Shown: in pieces, positions 28,724 through 37,973 of the stretch
How positions within the stretch are numbered: the stretch's first letter is position 1
Layout: the number at the start of each line of letters is the position of its first letter
Assembly: GCF_000020725.1 (NCBI RefSeq)
Contig: NC_011146.1
Span: forward strand, 1,549,501 to 1,613,500
Origin: Citrifermentans bemidjiense Bem
GTDB taxonomy: Bacteria; Desulfobacterota; Desulfuromonadia; Geobacterales; Geobacteraceae
Reading direction: 5' to 3'
Length of the DNA stretch: 64,000 nucleotides
The notes under the pieces: model-generated
What the model was told of the DNA's origin: nothing
Seen by the model: only the letters and a program-made list of their open reading frames with translations
Database searches by the model: none
Program-made: the position numbers and the translations under genes

Positions 28724-29554
28724 ATGAAAAAAGGTAGAGTGGTCTGCACCGCGTTGCCCCGTGTCCTGTTTTGGCTCTGCATTCTGAACGTCTGCCTGCT
28801 GGCTGTCGCGGGGAGGCTCTTCGCAGCCGATGCATTTCCCGGACTCCCCTACTGCAGCGTCCCCCCGTCGGCAGGAGCCGGGGTAAAGCCCAACCTGCTG
28901 CTCATGCTGGACAACTCCGCTAGCCTCTACGACCTGGCCTATACCGATCCCAACGCCTATTGCATCGACGACACCTACTCCGACTCAAAGTCGTACTCCG
29001 GATACTTCGACCAAGGGGTCGTCTACAGCTACGACTTGGCAGCCGGCGGCTTCAAGACCACGAGCGCAAAACTTCCAGGCGGCTGCAACACGGTGGACAA
29101 GGGCTATCTCTGCGTCGGGATGGCGGCTGACGTCGATCAATCGAAACCTCGCACGGTGGACCGCTTCCTCGCCAGCGGCAGGTTCCTCAACTGGCTGTCG
29201 ATGTCGAAACTGGACCTGCAAAAACGGGTGCTGACCGGCGGCAAATACATCGAAAACACCGGCAGGTTACAGGCCGAAAGCCGTGGCTGCCGGGGGGGAG
29301 AAGTACATCAAGGTCGCTACCGAGGCCTCCCAGGTCACCTTCGCCGTGCGCGGCCCTGCCGCCTCCGACACGGACTACCAGGGCCCCGAGCGTGCCGGCG
29401 GAGCGACCCGGATCGAAATCTACGACAGACCGTACAACGCCAAGGCCTGCGCCCAGGCGATGAGGGATTTCCAGGCTGGGAAGATCAAGGACCGCCTGCG
29501 CATCGGGGGCTTAAGCTGCCTCGGCGCGAACAACTGGTGGCAGGGTGTAGATGA
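28724..29554 (+). CDS. PilY1-like protein, 5' part before the frameshift
   Basis: Encodes a signal peptide (VLFWLCILNVCLLAVAGRLF, cleavage near AADA) and the start of a VWA-like domain with the MIDAS pattern LMLDNSASL. The PilY1 match runs to LQAESRGC near 29290; beyond that this frame gives unrelated sequence up to its stop at 29554, and the family sequence continues in another frame. Removing one base at TGC-CGGGGGGG (29288-29298) joins the two into one protein of about 1,485 residues. This could be true inactivation, slippage-based phase variation, or a sequencing error. Confidence 0.8.
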   Translation: MKKGRVVCTALPRVLFWLCILNVCLLAVAGRLFAADAFPGLPYCSVPPSAGAGVKPNLLLMLDNSASLYDLAYTDPNAYCIDDTYSDSKSYSGYFDQGVVYSYDLAAGGFKTTSAKLPGGCNTVDKGYLCVGMAADVDQSKPRTVDRFLASGRFLNWLSMSKLDLQKRVLTGGKYIENTGRLQAESRGCRGGEVHQGRYRGLPGHLRRARPCRLRHGLPGPRACRRSDPDRNLRQTVQRQGLRPGDEGFPGWEDQGPPAHRGLKLPRREQLVAGCR

Positions 29555-32500
29555 AGAGGGGAAGAAGATCCCAAGCGCCTACAGGACCTACAACGACGCC
29601 ATGACCAGCTGCTTTTTCGGCCGTCTTCTCGAACCCAAGAAATTTTTCACCACCATGGTCGCGGACGACTGCAGGCTCAGAATAATTAACATCTACAATG
29701 AGGAACCCGACAGGGCGGAGTTCTACGACCGTATCTGCGGCAGTAGCAAAACTTATCCCTATTTGGGCGAGTTCTGGGACGGGCACGGCATAGAGGACGG
29801 AGGTGAAACGGAAATAAAGGCGAAGGAGTTCTGTCAGGAGGCGGTAAAGGAGGCGCCCGCCACCGATCCTTTGGACAGCGCCGGCATGTCGGGAAACATG
29901 GAAGTCCCGGCCTACCTCCTGGAGCTGGGGCTTCTAAACCTCGGGACGGTGACGGGAACGCTACAGGCACAGGTAGTGCTCCCGTCGCCGCCGGCCGGGG
30001 TGATCCAGGAATTCTCCTCGGCCATCAACATCGGAGCCATGATCTTCAACGACAGCGGCGCAGCTTTCGACTGCAAGGCGGCCGGGGAGCTCGCCTACGG
30101 GGATATCCCCTGCAAGGTGAAGCACTGCGTGAAGGGCGGGGTGGATTCGGGACGGTCATGCAAAAGCTCCTCCGATTGCGAAGAACAGTACAGCTGCGTA
30201 GAACACGCGGTGGGAAGCGACGGGGGAAAGGTTGTGGCCGCCGTAGCCCCCGAGGTGGGAAATCATCTTTCCGGCTTGATAGCGACGGTCGACCAGATCA
30301 GGGCCGATGCCTGGACCCCTCTCGCCGAATCCTTCTACAACGCCATGGGCTACTTCTCCGGCCGCAGCGATCTGCGCCTGCAAGAGGGCGATTTTGGGAC
30401 GAGTCCTTCCCGCTACACCTGCCAGAAGAACAACGTCCTCATCCTGACGGACGGCACTTCGTCCGCGGATCTGCATAAGGCGGTCAATGACTTGGTAGCC
30501 GACGCGGTCATGCGCTGGGGAGGCGGGAAGGGGATGCCTGCCTCGTTGACGACCGTCGGGAAAGAGCGTCCACCGTTCCAGGGAAGCTACAACCTCGACG
30601 ACCTCGCCTGGATTGCCCGGCATAAGAACATCACGGACTTCTCGCAATCGCTGGTGAACAACAAGGACTACATCTCGACCTACGTGGTCTATACCGGCCC
30701 CCCCTGTGCGGAGCGGGACGCGGCAGGGGGATGTCCCGGCACGGAGGCGGTCCCGGAAAAAATGATGCAGATGACAGCTGCCAACGGGGGGGGGAAGATT
30801 GCCAACGCGCAGGACATGGCGGAGTTGGAAAAGGCGTTGCGCGGCATGATGCAGGACATAGCCGGAGGTTCCGGCACCTCGCCCGCCATGCTCTCCACCG
30901 GCGAGCGCAACGGTGCCCTGTATCTGCAGGACGAGTTCCACCCCTTGAAGAGCTTCGACCAGGGGAAGACCTCCGCCGCCTGGATCGGGGAGATGCAGGC
31001 CCTCTGGTACTACATCGACCCTCTCATCGGGATCATGAGCGGGGAGAAGAACACCATCCGCGAGGATACGCCGGAGCAAAAGACGCTGAAGCTCAAGGAA
31101 AACCTGGTGCTGGACCTTGTCTATGACAGCTCCGGAAACGAAAGCCATGCCTATTTGCTCAAAGACAAAAACGGCGACGGCATCGGCGACAGCACCCCGG
31201 CGCACGAGGACAGATTCATCACGGACCAGCCCGCGGAGGTCTCGCTGGACGACGTGCGGAGCCTTTGGCGCGCGGGGCGGAGCCTGTGGCTTAGGCGCTC
31301 GTCGACGCGCACCATTTACACGCAGCTCTCCGGCGAACTGGTCGAGTTCAGCACCGCCGCTCTCGATACCTCCGCGAACAGTACCGGTATCCATCGGCTT
31401 TTGCAGGCAGGGGGGGCTAAGGAAGCCGACGACATAATTGAATACATCAGGGGGCGCAAGATCGCCGGGTACAGGAACCGCAGTCTAGCCGTCCCGGGGG
31501 TGAACCAGGACAAAACCTCGGTTTGGAAACTGGGGGACATCATCTCCTCCTCGCCTCAAATGCAGTCCGCGGTGCCGCTGGGAAGCTATCAGCTGCCGGC
31601 GCCAAGGGGGTACGGCGACACAAGCTACGGCGAATTCACAGACACCGCTTCCTACAAGGCGCGCGGCATGGTGTACGTAGGCGCCAACGACGGGATGCTG
31701 CACGCCTTCCGGTTGGGGACGCTCGACCCCGATGTCACCGGCGACACGCTCGCTCGCCTCAAAGGGGAGAGCCTGGGCAAGGAGGAATGGGCTTTCATCC
31801 CCAAGAACGCTCTTCCCTACCTCAAGTACCTGACCCATCCCGACTACCGCCACCTCTATTACGTCGACGGCGGTATCACCCTCGCCGACGTGCAGATCGG
31901 AAGCGGGGACGGGAGCGACAGCTGGCGCACCGTCCTCATCGGTGGAATGGGGCTTGGGGGCGCAACCTGCGTTAGCGGCGCCAACTGCGTTCCCTTGCCT
32001 TCCGGCACCGCCGCGGACAAGGTAGGCTATTCCTCTTATTTCGCCCTGGATATCACCGACCCGGAAAAACCGAAGCTCCTCTGGGAGTTCAGCGACCCGC
32101 AGCTTGGCTTCGCCACGGCCGGCAGCGCCATCGTGCGCTCCGGCGGCAATTGGTTCGCCGTCCTCGGCTCGGGGCCGACCGGCCCGGTCGACACCGGCTC
32201 ACAGCAGTTTCTCGGGCGCTCCAGCCAGCCGCTCAGGTTCTTCGTCCTCGACCTTGCCACCGGAAAACTCTTGCGGACCATGGAAACAAATGTAGAGAAG
32301 GCCTTTGCCGGTTCCTTGAACGGAGGAGGGATCGACGCGGACAAGTGGGATAGCAGCGCCTTGGGCAACTACCAGGACGACGCCCTCTACGTCGGCTACA
32401 CGAAAAAGCACGAAACCTCCGGCACCTGGAGCGACGGCGGGGTGGGGAGGATCGTCACCAGGGAAAGCAAGAACCCGGCGGAGTGGGTCTGGAACCCGCT

Positions 32501-33182
32501 GATCGACGGCATCGGCCCGGTGACGAGCGGTGTGGCGCGGCTTCAGGACCGCAAGGATAAGAACCTCTGGCTCTTCTTCGGAGGGGGGAGGTACTTCTTC
32601 AAGGAGGACGGCCTCAATGGTCCGGACAAGCCGCGGCTCGCCCTGTACGGGGTGAAGGAGCCCTGCTATCCGAAGGCGGAGGGAAGCTTGAAAAAAGACA
32701 GGTTCGACGCCACCTGTCTTGCCCAGCCTGGGGAGAAGACCAAAGTCCTCACCTCCGATCTGGCGGATCAAAGCGGGGAAACCGCAGAGATGAAGGACAA
32801 GAAGGGATGGCGCATCGATCTTGACCGCGCCTCCGGGACGCTGGGAGACGAGAGGCTTCTCACCTCCGCGACTGCCAGCGCCAGCGGGGCCGTCTTTTTC
32901 ACTACCTTCAAGCCCAGCACCGACCCTTGCCAGTTCGGCGCCTCCTCGCTTTGGCGCGTCTATTACAATACCGGCGCCCAAACACCGGATGGACTGATCA
33001 AGGGGAGGGCGCTGGTGCGGGTGGCGACCGGTAGCCTGCAGTCGTTGGATCTCGGGGAGGGGTTCAAGCAAAGGGACAACAGGCGCAGCGGCGGCGTGGT
33101 CGGCAAGCCGGGCGGCATCAGGCTTGTGTCCAACAGCGGGCTGCGTCCGGTGAAGAAGATCGTCCACATCCAGGAACGCTGA
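29283..33182 (+). CDS. PilY1-like pilus-tip/adhesin protein, main part after the frameshift
   Basis: In-frame from GTG 29283, but its natural start is at 28724 in another frame. It holds the rest of the VWA-like region and the C-terminal PilC/PilY1 beta-propeller with MVYVGANDGMLHAF, WAFIPKNALPYLKYL and LYYVDGGITLADV. A Ca-binding-like loop DKNGDGIGD lies between. PilY1 proteins prime type IV pilus assembly, regulate retraction and act as adhesins. Pilus-related functions are central to surface contact in this family of bacteria. A G9 tract lies in frame at 30786-30794. The gene is followed 24 bp later by the delta-60 repeat protein. Confidence 0.88.
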   Translation: MAAGGEKYIKVATEASQVTFAVRGPAASDTDYQGPERAGGATRIEIYDRPYNAKACAQAMRDFQAGKIKDRLRIGGLSCLGANNWWQGVDEEGKKIPSAYRTYNDAMTSCFFGRLLEPKKFFTTMVADDCRLRIINIYNEEPDRAEFYDRICGSSKTYPYLGEFWDGHGIEDGGETEIKAKEFCQEAVKEAPATDPLDSAGMSGNMEVPAYLLELGLLNLGTVTGTLQAQVVLPSPPAGVIQEFSSAINIGAMIFNDSGAAFDCKAAGELAYGDIPCKVKHCVKGGVDSGRSCKSSSDCEEQYSCVEHAVGSDGGKVVAAVAPEVGNHLSGLIATVDQIRADAWTPLAESFYNAMGYFSGRSDLRLQEGDFGTSPSRYTCQKNNVLILTDGTSSADLHKAVNDLVADAVMRWGGGKGMPASLTTVGKERPPFQGSYNLDDLAWIARHKNITDFSQSLVNNKDYISTYVVYTGPPCAERDAAGGCPGTEAVPEKMMQMTAANGGGKIANAQDMAELEKALRGMMQDIAGGSGTSPAMLSTGERNGALYLQDEFHPLKSFDQGKTSAAWIGEMQALWYYIDPLIGIMSGEKNTIREDTPEQKTLKLKENLVLDLVYDSSGNESHAYLLKDKNGDGIGDSTPAHEDRFITDQPAEVSLDDVRSLWRAGRSLWLRRSSTRTIYTQLSGELVEFSTAALDTSANSTGIHRLLQAGGAKEADDIIEYIRGRKIAGYRNRSLAVPGVNQDKTSVWKLGDIISSSPQMQSAVPLGSYQLPAPRGYGDTSYGEFTDTASYKARGMVYVGANDGMLHAFRLGTLDPDVTGDTLARLKGESLGKEEWAFIPKNALPYLKYLTHPDYRHLYYVDGGITLADVQIGSGDGSDSWRTVLIGGMGLGGATCVSGANCVPLPSGTAADKVGYSSYFALDITDPEKPKLLWEFSDPQLGFATAGSAIVRSGGNWFAVLGSGPTGPVDTGSQQFLGRSSQPLRFFVLDLATGKLLRTMETNVEKAFAGSLNGGGIDADKWDSSALGNYQDDALYVGYTKKHETSGTWSDGGVGRIVTRESKNPAEWVWNPLIDGIGPVTSGVARLQDRKDKNLWLFFGGGRYFFKEDGLNGPDKPRLALYGVKEPCYPKAEGSLKKDRFDATCLAQPGEKTKVLTSDLADQSGETAEMKDKKGWRIDLDRASGTLGDERLLTSATASASGAVFFTTFKPSTDPCQFGASSLWRVYYNTGAQTPDGLIKGRALVRVATGSLQSLDLGEGFKQRDNRRSGGVVGKPGGIRLVSNSGLRPVKKIVHIQER

Positions 33183-33206: not shown

Positions 33207-36200
33207 ATGAAGCCAAGACCGCTTTTGCTCCTGCTGGTCGCACTTATTCTCTCGCTTTTCGCCGGCCGCGCCCAAGCCGCCGTCTCGTCCCTGCGTGACG
33301 GCTTCGACATCTACAGCAGCGTCAAGATAAGCGGCGCCGGGATCCGCTCCGTCGCGGTGCAGCCGTGGGACGGCAAGGTGATCATCGGCGGCTCCTTCAC
33401 CCTGACCGGCGGCACTCCCGTGACCACCAGGGTCAATCTGGCCCGGTTGAACCCGGACGGCACCCTCGATACCACCCTCAATTACAATCCCCAAGGGAGC
33501 GTGAACGCCATCGCCATCCAGTGGAACCAGGCGAATTCCGCCTTGAGCTCCATCTTCATCGGCGGGGCGTTCGCCAAGATCGCCACGCCTGAAGGGGACT
33601 TGGATCGCAATGCCTTGGCGCGGATAAGAAGCGGCGACGGCTTTCTAGAGGACTTCGATCCTATCACCTCGGCCGCGGCCGTAGTGAACGCGCTGGTCCT
33701 CCCCCAAGGCTCCAGCGACATCGTCGTCGGCGGGAGCTTCAGCCAGGTCTCCCACACCGCCCCGTGCAGCAACATCGCCAAAATCTCGCTCGCCGACGGG
33801 ACCCTTAAATCCAGCTTTTCGGGGGGGGTAAGCGGCGGCCAGGTCTTCGCCATCGCGCTGCAAAACGGGAAGGTGGTGGCGGGCGGGAGCTTCACAGGGA
33901 GCGCCGGGTACCTGGCCCGTTTCACCAGCGCCGGTTTACCCGATCCCAGCTTCAGCGCCTATCCCGACGGGCCGGTACGGGCGCTGGCGGTGCAGGTGGA
34001 CGGCCGGCTGGTGCTAGGGGGGGATTTCACCGGTATCCATATCGGCCCGGGGAGGGTATTCCACCCCCGCGAGCACCTGGCGCGCACCGCGGGCGACGGG
34101 ACCATAGACGATTTCAATCCCGCTCCCGACGGCGGCGTCGCCGCCGTGGCGCTGCAGCCGGACGGCAAGATCGTCATCGGCGGGGAATTCACCAAGATAG
34201 CTAAACCCGGCCCTGCCCTCCCTGCTTCCTCCCGCAACCATGCGGCCCGCCTCAATATCGACGGCACCCTCGACGGTTTCGACCCCGCCCCGGACCTGAA
34301 GGTGGCAGCCGCCCTGGTGCAGTTGGATGGCAAGATCCTTATCGCCGGCGACTTCGATAATGTAGCAGGCGCCCCCCGCACCAAGCTGGCCCGGTTTTAC
34401 CCCGAGGGGCATCTCGATGAGGATGCGGTCGCGATCGGAACCAAGATAGTCTCGCTCATGGATACCGCCGACATTGGCGCCAACATCCTCACCTTCTACG
34501 CCCACCCGGACGGGAAAATGGACATAGGCGGACTCTTCAGCAACGTAGACGGCACACTCAGAAACCGTTTCGCCAGGCTGGAAAAGGACTGGAGCCTCGA
34601 CTTGGATCCGCCGGGAAACCTGAAGCTGAACAACGGCGTCCTGGTGATAGCGCCCTATCTGAACGGGGACATTCTCGTTGCAGGGCAATTCGGCGCCATG
34701 AACGGGGCGCCGCAAAACCAGGTGTTCCGCCTTAAATCGAACGGCGATCTCGACTTAGATTTCAATGCCAAGATGAACCTGTTGATCGCGGGAGAGGTTA
34801 TGCCCGGCCTGCAGATGGCCCGCGCAGTCGGGATGACGCCGACGGGCGATACGCTCCCGGACCAAACGCCGAAGATGGATATCTTCATCGCAGGCGGCAG
34901 CTCCGACCCCGCATATGACGAATTCGGCGCCGAGCTGAACCCTCGTTTTTTCCTGGCGAAAGTGGACCACGCGGGCGATCTCGACGCCGCCTTCGCGGCA
35001 AACGTGTACGCCTTGCCCCCCTCCCTGATCGGCGGGGAGATCACGGCTTTGACGGTGCAGGGGCGGAAGGTCGTGATCGGGACCACCGAAGGGGTGGTGC
35101 TGCGCCTGAACGAAAACGGGACCCAGGACGAAAGCTTTAACGAACTGCAGCTCGGCTCCGGCATGATCAACACCATCCAGCAGACCGCCGACGGCAAACT
35201 GATGGTGGCCGGCACCTTCACCTCCACCTATACCGGCCCCGACGGCAAGAGCTGGAAAAGGCACATCCTCAGGATCGATAACAACGGCGCCATAGACAAC
35301 ACCTTCAACGTCGAAACCACATACATCAGGCCTGACGGGAGGGAGCTCACCGGCTCCTTCTACGCCATCGCCGTGCAGACCGACGGCAACATGGTCGTGT
35401 CCGGGAACTTCAACACGGTCAGAGACGGCAAGGAAACTACGGCTGCGAGATGGCACATCTCCCGCCTGACCCCGGAGGGGGTGCTCGACCCGGACTTCGA
35501 CTACGGCTTCCTCGGCGGCAAGAGGGCCGATTACAACCTCAACATGGTGAATGCAGTCGGCAAGCAGCTCGACGGCAAGCTGGTGATGGCGGGCGCTTTC
35601 CGCAGCATCGGCGACGATATCGAGAAGAGGGTTTTGGAGCGCTTCAGCGACGGGTGGGCGCCGCAAGAGGTGGCGGTACAGCCGGACGGCAAGGCGGTGC
35701 GCTGGGAGCGGCGCGGGACGGGCCCGGAATTTGCCCGGGTGACCTTCGAGCATTCTCCGGACGGCGTGGAGTGGCTCCCCCTGGGGCCGGCTGAGAGGGT
35801 CGCCGGGACGGCGAACTGGGAGCTCTCCGGAAACGGCTTCGACCTCGGCGCTTCGGGTACGCTTGCCACCCGTTTCCTGCGCGCCCGGGGGTACATGACC
35901 AACCACAGGGGCGGGGCCGGCCCGATCATGGAAACCATCCGGGTTTTCTATCTCAACCCGGCGCCGGTCAAGCAGGAGCAGACCATCGATCCCGGCGATT
36001 TCAGCGACAAGACCTACGGCGACCCCGACTTCGACCCGGGCGGAAGCTCAACCAGCGGCCTGCCGCTGACCTACACCAGTTCCGACCCCGGGGTCGCCGT
36101 TGCGGTCGGGGGAGAGATACAGATCACCGGCGCCGGGACCGCCACCATCACGGTTTCGCAGGGGGGGGACGACAGCTTTGAGCCCGCGGAAGATGTCACC

Positions 36201-37973
36201 GTCTCCTTTACCGTCGCCAAGGCTCCGCTTCGCGTCGTCGCCGACGACAAGGTCCGCGCTTTCCTGACGCCCAACCCCGCGCTCAGCGCGAGTTACCTTG
36301 GGTTCGTCAAGGGGGAAGGGGTGTCGGTTCTTTCGGGGAGCCCCTCGCTCTCGACCGCGGCCTTATTTGAGAGCAGCGTCGGGGAGTATGCCATCGCGGC
36401 CGCCCTGGGGACGCTCTCTTCGCAAAACTACCGTTTCCTGCCGGTCGACGGCACGTTGCGCATCTTCAGGTCCTGCCAGGAGATCTACTTCCCCCCCATA
36501 CCGGAGCGGACCTTCGGCGACCCCCCCTTTACTATTGTCGCCTCGGCCTGCAGCGGACTCACCTTGAGCTTTGCGAGCTCGGATCGTGAGGTGGCGCAGG
36601 TGAACGGGCAGACAGTCACCATAACCGGCGCTGGAAGCGCGGTGATCACCGTGTCGCAGCCGGGGACCGGGAGCCTGGAACCGGCGCCCGAAAGGTTGCA
36701 GCCCCTGGTGGTGCACAAGAGCGGGCAGGGGGTCTCCTTTTCCTCGCTGGCCCAGAAGGTGGTGGGGGATCCCCCCTTTCCCCTCCAGGCAAGTGCCACT
36801 AGCGCCCTTCCCGTGAGCTACGCGAGTTCCGATCCCCTGGTCGCCGAAGTGACCGGGAACATGGTCACCATCGTCGGGGCGGGGACCTGCGTCATCACCG
36901 CGCGGCAAACAGGCAACAACGACTTCGAGCCCGCTCTCCCGGTTTCCCAGCCGCTGACCGTAGCCAGCGAGGGGGTGGCGCCGGAGCTCTCCCTCTCCAC
37001 GCTCTCGGACGGGGCCGTGACCTCGAACCCGGTGCTGAGCCTCATGGGAAAAGCATCCGACCTCTCCGGCATCGCCACCCTCACGGTGAACGGGGAGGAA
37101 GTGACCGCCGAGGCGGCATCTTTCAGCTCCGCCGTCGTTCTCGCCCCCGGGTCCAACTCGGTCAGCGTCTCCGCCCTCGACCGTGCCGGGAACCGGACCA
37201 CCCGGACCCTCAACATCACGCTTGCCCCCCTGGCGCCGGTGATCTCGGTGGTTTTCCCGGCGGACAATAGCGTCACCGACACCCCCTCCTGCGCCGTGAA
37301 AGGGAGCGTCACCCCGGGGAGCGCGGTCACCCTCTGGTTGAACGGGTCGTCGCCGCAGTTGCTGGGGGTGGAGCAAGGTAGCTTCACCGGCAGCGCCTAC
37401 CTTTCCGAAGGGGTGAACACCATCGAGATCTCGGCCGAGCTCTCCGGGCGGAGTTCACGGGTGAAGCGGAGCGTGACGTTATCGCCGGGCGGACCTGCCA
37501 TAGCGATCACAGAGCCGGCACAGGACCTGCGCACCGAGCGGCAGTCGCTCACCATCCGCGGCAGCACGACCCTGCAGCAGCCGGGGAGCGTCACCCTCGA
37601 GGTGGATGGGGTGCCGTTCACCCCGCTGATCTCGGCGGGTGGGTTCGAGCAGCAGGTGACGCTTTCACGGACCGGCGTGATCCGTATCAGGGCCAGGGGG
37701 GGAGGCGGAGCGGGAGAATCGGTCGTGGCGCAGAGGAACCTGATCCGGGTCGAGATGATACCGGGGGACCTGGACGGCAACGGCAGCGTCGACCTGCAGG
37801 ACGCTGCCCGGCTGCTGAGGGGATCGCTGGGGCTAGAGCCCATGAGCGCGGAGCTTTTCGCACGCGGCGACCTGGCCCCGCTGGTGAACGGAATTCCGCA
37901 GCCCGACGGTGTCGTCGATGTGGGCGACGTCCTTGTGCTGCTGCGCAGGATCGTCGGGCTGGTCGATTTCTAG
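33207..37973 (+). CDS. Giant secreted protein: delta-60 repeats, MBG-like and Ig-like domains, dockerin-like C-terminus
   Basis: 1,588 residues. A signal peptide ends at about AQAA. Residues about 40-830 are delta-60 beta-propeller-like repeats (forms of AVQPDGKIVIGGEFT and ARLNPDGTLD). Residues about 920-1255 are three MBG/Ig-like modules sharing YGDP or GDPPF, a SSDP or SSDR core and ITGAG. Residues about 1260-1510 are further Ig-like beta domains. The last about 70 residues contain GDLDGNGSVDLQDAARLL and PDGVVDVGDVLVLLRRI, two Ca-binding dockerin-like repeats. It is probably exported and surface-bound. It is adjacent to and probably co-transcribed with the pilY1-like gene, suggesting a joint surface role. 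Function unknown. Confidence 0.9.
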   Translation: MKPRPLLLLLVALILSLFAGRAQAAVSSLRDGFDIYSSVKISGAGIRSVAVQPWDGKVIIGGSFTLTGGTPVTTRVNLARLNPDGTLDTTLNYNPQGSVNAIAIQWNQANSALSSIFIGGAFAKIATPEGDLDRNALARIRSGDGFLEDFDPITSAAAVVNALVLPQGSSDIVVGGSFSQVSHTAPCSNIAKISLADGTLKSSFSGGVSGGQVFAIALQNGKVVAGGSFTGSAGYLARFTSAGLPDPSFSAYPDGPVRALAVQVDGRLVLGGDFTGIHIGPGRVFHPREHLARTAGDGTIDDFNPAPDGGVAAVALQPDGKIVIGGEFTKIAKPGPALPASSRNHAARLNIDGTLDGFDPAPDLKVAAALVQLDGKILIAGDFDNVAGAPRTKLARFYPEGHLDEDAVAIGTKIVSLMDTADIGANILTFYAHPDGKMDIGGLFSNVDGTLRNRFARLEKDWSLDLDPPGNLKLNNGVLVIAPYLNGDILVAGQFGAMNGAPQNQVFRLKSNGDLDLDFNAKMNLLIAGEVMPGLQMARAVGMTPTGDTLPDQTPKMDIFIAGGSSDPAYDEFGAELNPRFFLAKVDHAGDLDAAFAANVYALPPSLIGGEITALTVQGRKVVIGTTEGVVLRLNENGTQDESFNELQLGSGMINTIQQTADGKLMVAGTFTSTYTGPDGKSWKRHILRIDNNGAIDNTFNVETTYIRPDGRELTGSFYAIAVQTDGNMVVSGNFNTVRDGKETTAARWHISRLTPEGVLDPDFDYGFLGGKRADYNLNMVNAVGKQLDGKLVMAGAFRSIGDDIEKRVLERFSDGWAPQEVAVQPDGKAVRWERRGTGPEFARVTFEHSPDGVEWLPLGPAERVAGTANWELSGNGFDLGASGTLATRFLRARGYMTNHRGGAGPIMETIRVFYLNPAPVKQEQTIDPGDFSDKTYGDPDFDPGGSSTSGLPLTYTSSDPGVAVAVGGEIQITGAGTATITVSQGGDDSFEPAEDVTVSFTVAKAPLRVVADDKVRAFLTPNPALSASYLGFVKGEGVSVLSGSPSLSTAALFESSVGEYAIAAALGTLSSQNYRFLPVDGTLRIFRSCQEIYFPPIPERTFGDPPFTIVASACSGLTLSFASSDREVAQVNGQTVTITGAGSAVITVSQPGTGSLEPAPERLQPLVVHKSGQGVSFSSLAQKVVGDPPFPLQASATSALPVSYASSDPLVAEVTGNMVTIVGAGTCVITARQTGNNDFEPALPVSQPLTVASEGVAPELSLSTLSDGAVTSNPVLSLMGKASDLSGIATLTVNGEEVTAEAASFSSAVVLAPGSNSVSVSALDRAGNRTTRTLNITLAPLAPVISVVFPADNSVTDTPSCAVKGSVTPGSAVTLWLNGSSPQLLGVEQGSFTGSAYLSEGVNTIEISAELSGRSSRVKRSVTLSPGGPAIAITEPAQDLRTERQSLTIRGSTTLQQPGSVTLEVDGVPFTPLISAGGFEQQVTLSRTGVIRIRARGGGGAGESVVAQRNLIRVEMIPGDLDGNGSVDLQDAARLLRGSLGLEPMSAELFARGDLAPLVNGIPQPDGVVDVGDVLVLLRRIVGLVDF

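Follow-up and report, generated by a model that had tools for sequence, protein, structure and literature searches.

In strain Bem of Citrifermentans bemidjiense, an orphan PilY1 paralog has probably lost its function recently, through slippage that lengthened a run of six guanines to seven. The gene spans positions 28724-33182 of the window (i.e. the whole stretch of 64,000 nucleotides that was analysed, from a genome of a single contig of 4,615,150 bp) and is split by a single extra G in a tract that comprises CC (29290-29291) and G7 (29292-29298), with 29286-29301 reading GGCTGCCGGGGGGGAG. The 5′ fragment (Table 1) carries an N-terminal hydrophobic stretch, a DNSAS motif and family sequence as far as ...LQAESRGC before it runs out of frame, and its first 189 residues are 95% identical to the N-terminus of the intact 1,479-aa gene of C. 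bremense R1; the sequence from EKYIKV onward is held by a second open reading frame (ORF; 29283-33182, 1,299 aa). A preliminary description of this DNA had proposed that a PilY1-like gene is split at a C-G7 tract and that deletion of one base would restore a continuous protein, and both proposals are borne out: two ORFs lie in different frames where relatives have a single open frame with G6, and the one-base deletion rejoins the LQAESRGC and EKYIKV sides as consecutive parts of one gene.

Table 1. Coordinates, within the window, of the split PilY1-family gene, its G tracts and the adjoining gene.
Feature	Position	Strand	Remarks
5′ fragment, PilY1-family gene	28724-29554	+	276-aa ORF; 189 native codons, then 87 residues to the shifted-frame stop
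CC-G7 tract, one-base expansion	29290-29298	+	G6 in the two closest relatives
Remainder of PilY1-family gene, other frame	29298-33182	+	1,294 codons, no stops; includes the PilY1 beta-propeller domain
G9 tract within PilY1-family gene	30786-30794	+	In frame; length identical in C. bremense
Delta-60-repeat/DUF5122 beta-propeller surface protein gene	33207-37973	+	Intact in Bem; adjoins orphan pilY1 across the genus

The one-base break is present in the deposited sequence and, judged by alignment with related genomes, is derived in Bem, since the closest relatives have G6 and other members of the genus have no G run at the site. A relative of the split gene was found in all 19 genomes searched in a survey of the genus. 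In the closest of these, C. bremense R1 (G004), the site reads TGC CGG GGG GAG AAG (C2G6) within the single open frame of 1,479 aa, and the same C2G6 codons occur in an open frame of 1,500 aa in a second genome (G012, 75% identity); the remaining members of the genus have C-[V/Q/L/A/M]-G-[K/R] or similar. Bem and C. bremense R1 could be aligned over a syntenic 60 kb at 95-98% identity, and direct comparison of the two pilY1 sequences (95-96% identical) shows one unbalanced indel, the extra G at 29292. Comparison of tract length among relatives, which the preliminary description had put forward as a check on its switching proposal, accordingly went against it: with G6 in two relatives and no tract elsewhere, the site is not conserved as a tract whose length varies across species.

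The break looks recent, because the 1,294 codons downstream of it are intact and as strongly constrained as their counterparts in C. bremense. This is directly apparent from dN/dS of the downstream part, calculated by branch as 0.0147/0.0761 for Bem and 0.0140/0.0818 for C. bremense; parsimony counts of nonsynonymous and synonymous changes (22/38 vs 17/44) show no difference (Fisher p=0.33), and the unconstrained share of the Bem branch has an upper bound of about 0.21. An old, decaying pseudogene was rejected on the equality of the two branches, and the degradation of the downstream frame that the preliminary description had named as telling against switching is not seen. On sequence alone, a recent break, an error and a reversible change look alike.

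Assignment of the gene to the PilY1 family is supported by a match of the downstream part to PF05567 (T4P_PilY1; 43.6 bits against a cut-off of 28.1, profile positions 1-143 of 411) and by a structure match to Pseudomonas aeruginosa PilY1 (3hx6_A; E 2.4e-14, query 749-1224). A divergently oriented NiFe hydrogenase operon lies upstream of the split gene, and 25 nt downstream of it is the gene for a 1,588-aa delta-60-repeat/DUF5122 protein, followed by that for an L,D-transpeptidase-like protein. The delta-60-repeat protein, the C-terminus of which is dockerin-like by reading of the sequence, forms with the orphan PilY1-like protein a surface pair that is conserved across the genus. Minor-pilin neighbours (FimU/PilV/PilW/PilX) are a usual, though not a strict, feature of PilY1 genes, and none was found among the neighbours of the split copy. 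The genome has PilY1 genes at 1.78 and 2.72 Mb as well; both are intact, and both lie beside minor pilins of the PilV/PilW/PilX type with N-methylation motifs; the Bem genome paper calls pilY1 triplicated (PMC2996986). Of the pilus-tip adhesin envisaged in the preliminary description, then, the family membership stands, whilst a pilus-tip role for the split copy is uncertain: minor pilins accompany the two other loci but not this one, and their absence lowers the case for the pilus tip more than that for family membership. Since the two intact paralogs are accompanied by minor pilins, loss of the orphan copy need not affect ordinary type IV pili. An Rfam search and a scan for promoters and terminators at the locus gave no lead.

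G runs are where consensus sequencing errors fall, and were the extra G such an error the real gene would be intact, as it is in relatives and in keeping with the lack of visible relaxed selection; the ceiling of <1 error in 100,000 stated for the genome would, moreover, permit up to about 46 errors genome-wide (PMC2996986). We nevertheless regard an error as unlikely, given that Bem is represented by a finished Sanger sequence at 11-fold coverage, that its authors, on inspecting the frameshifts in homopolymers, considered only seven of them polymorphic (PMC2996986), and that longer G8-G9 runs in the window remain in frame. The overlap of the two frames and the conservation of the downstream one would also suit recoding, in which +1 ribosomal frameshifting or transcriptional slippage at C-C-G7 yields the full protein. 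This we consider very improbable, as the out-of-frame arrangement occurs in no relative, and so is not a conserved signal, and a recent mutation accounts equally well for the intact downstream frame. That two separate genes are present, the second beginning from GTG 29283, is hardly credible: the second ORF is uninterrupted and has a GTG close to its beginning, but it would be without a signal peptide and would start mid-family in a family that is one gene in relatives.

The preliminary description had taken the G tract for a phase-variable switch of a pilus-tip adhesin, citing poly-G variation of PilY1/PilC in Neisseria; the tract would then be a contingency locus for the surface protein. The gene family fits this interpretation, as do the intact downstream frame, the intact minor alleles of seven homopolymer-broken Bem genes (PMC2996986), and the occurrence, in 4 of the 19 genus genomes, of single-base breaks that hit either this gene or the adjoining delta-60 gene at a G run. 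Against it, G7 is short beside the G9-20 listed for Neisseria pilC tracts (PMC5953494), the tract is missing from most relatives, the longer G9 further along the gene has the same length in Bem and C. bremense, and the excess of breaks is gone once tract density is allowed for. Tracts are no denser than codon usage predicts: the pilY1 genes of 12 genomes contain 36 G/C runs of at least 7, where shuffling of synonymous codons gives an expectation of 32.4, and selection for tracts was rejected on this basis. A hypermutable tract was likewise rejected, both the length and the genome counts of G7 being ordinary: it falls short of the hypermutable length for poly-G (at least 9 by the PhasomeIt cut-off of a phasome survey; PMC5953494), the window has 37 overlapping G7 matches where shuffles predict 33.3, and there are 1,021 exact G7 runs genome-wide. 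As siaD switches at G7 (PMC5953494), length alone does not exclude switching. Overall, the shortness of G7, the lack of conservation of the tract, a tract density at codon expectation and the unchanged G9 leave on/off switching as a slim possibility, without the usual marks of such a system. Were the change reversible, Bem would offer a case of surface-protein phase variation in an environmental Fe(III) reducer, a setting for which the open papers searched document little such switching.

The four breaks are distributed equally between the two genes, affecting pilY1 in Bem (G000) and G017 and the delta-60 gene in G001 and G018. In G001 (L102:6841-6914) the tract responsible is a G8, compared with G7 in a sister of 95% identity, and in G018 (L103:5592-6207) it is a G6, compared with G7 in a relative; pilY1 of G017, a draft assembly, loses its frame about 40 codons beyond the Bem site, where a G5 run stands beside GCGC (L080:2170-2194). 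Control long genes, i.e. about 105 RND transporters (one poor draft left out) and about 36 pilY1 paralogs, contained about one break. With gene counts and lengths approximate and some genomes drafts, the excess in the pilY1/delta-60 pair has a raw P of 0.02-0.05 and a per-tract P of 0.15-0.27, and is not significant per tract; G/C runs of at least 6 are about 2.6 times more frequent per kb in the pair than in other genes. We read these breaks as those of glycine-rich genes that present large slippage targets, repeated reversible loss being an unlikely alternative. The broader proposal, that the pair constitutes a surface module of Citrifermentans and relatives repeatedly silenced, and perhaps restored, by slips in short G runs, and thus a diffuse, many-tract phase variation in a non-pathogenic metal reducer, appears quite improbable. 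Recurrent breakage across the family was rejected in an order-level survey, in which the other short frames (G019, G049, G050, G084, G098, G071) could be put down to contig ends, to an N gap, or to a large deletion or misassembly.

Elsewhere in the genome, the longest G run found is a G13 (L095:1949-1961, equivalent to G000:C1:97448-97460) that leaves the frame of its dCache-HAMP-PAS-GGDEF gene undisturbed. In relatives the tract is equally long but other bases interrupt it, and the G13 therefore arose by substitution rather than by a change in length; as a candidate site of slippage it is better than the G7. A G12 at G000:C1:4055976 was rejected as a split gene, since it falls between two genes on the other strand.

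For the recent slippage loss that we favour, the putative course of events is that replication slippage added one base to a G6 run to give G7. Ribosomes would then lose frame after codon 190 and terminate at 29554, and the resulting 276-residue product would be without the beta-propeller domain, so that functional protein is presumably absent. Type IV pili would be little affected, given the paralogs, and reversion from G7 to G6 would be expected at the low rate that is usual for short G runs. The Bem genome paper describes 27 pseudogenes frameshifted in runs of at least 5 identical bases, seven of which were polymorphic, with intact minor alleles in culture (PMC2996986); in the same way, a minority of cells may be intact at the locus described here. 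Against a simple loss, this PilY1 copy is intact in nearly all relatives, and its loss may therefore carry a cost, leaving room for reversibility. If the break is only a recent loss, in the reference stock one PilY1 gene out of three is probably inactive, a point of relevance to annotation and to work on pili and attachment in Bem.

Comparison with known systems places the split gene alongside Neisseria pilC1 and pilC2 (PMC5953494, PMC5231331), in which a PilY1/PilC gene is likewise cut short when a G tract changes by one base. The Neisseria tracts are, however, longer (G9-20) and their switching is demonstrated, with phase-variable pilC alleles found only in the pathogenic species (PMC5953494), whereas the Bem tract is a G7 that is not conserved across the genus. 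The likeness to P. aeruginosa PilY1 (PDB 3hx6; PF05567) lies in homology of the C-terminal beta-propeller, but the Bem copy is situated outside any minor-pilin operon and is paired instead with a delta-60-repeat protein. The homopolymer-frameshifted pseudogenes of G. bemidjiensis (PMC2996986) share with it both the genome and the kind of lesion, and some of them are mixed with intact alleles.
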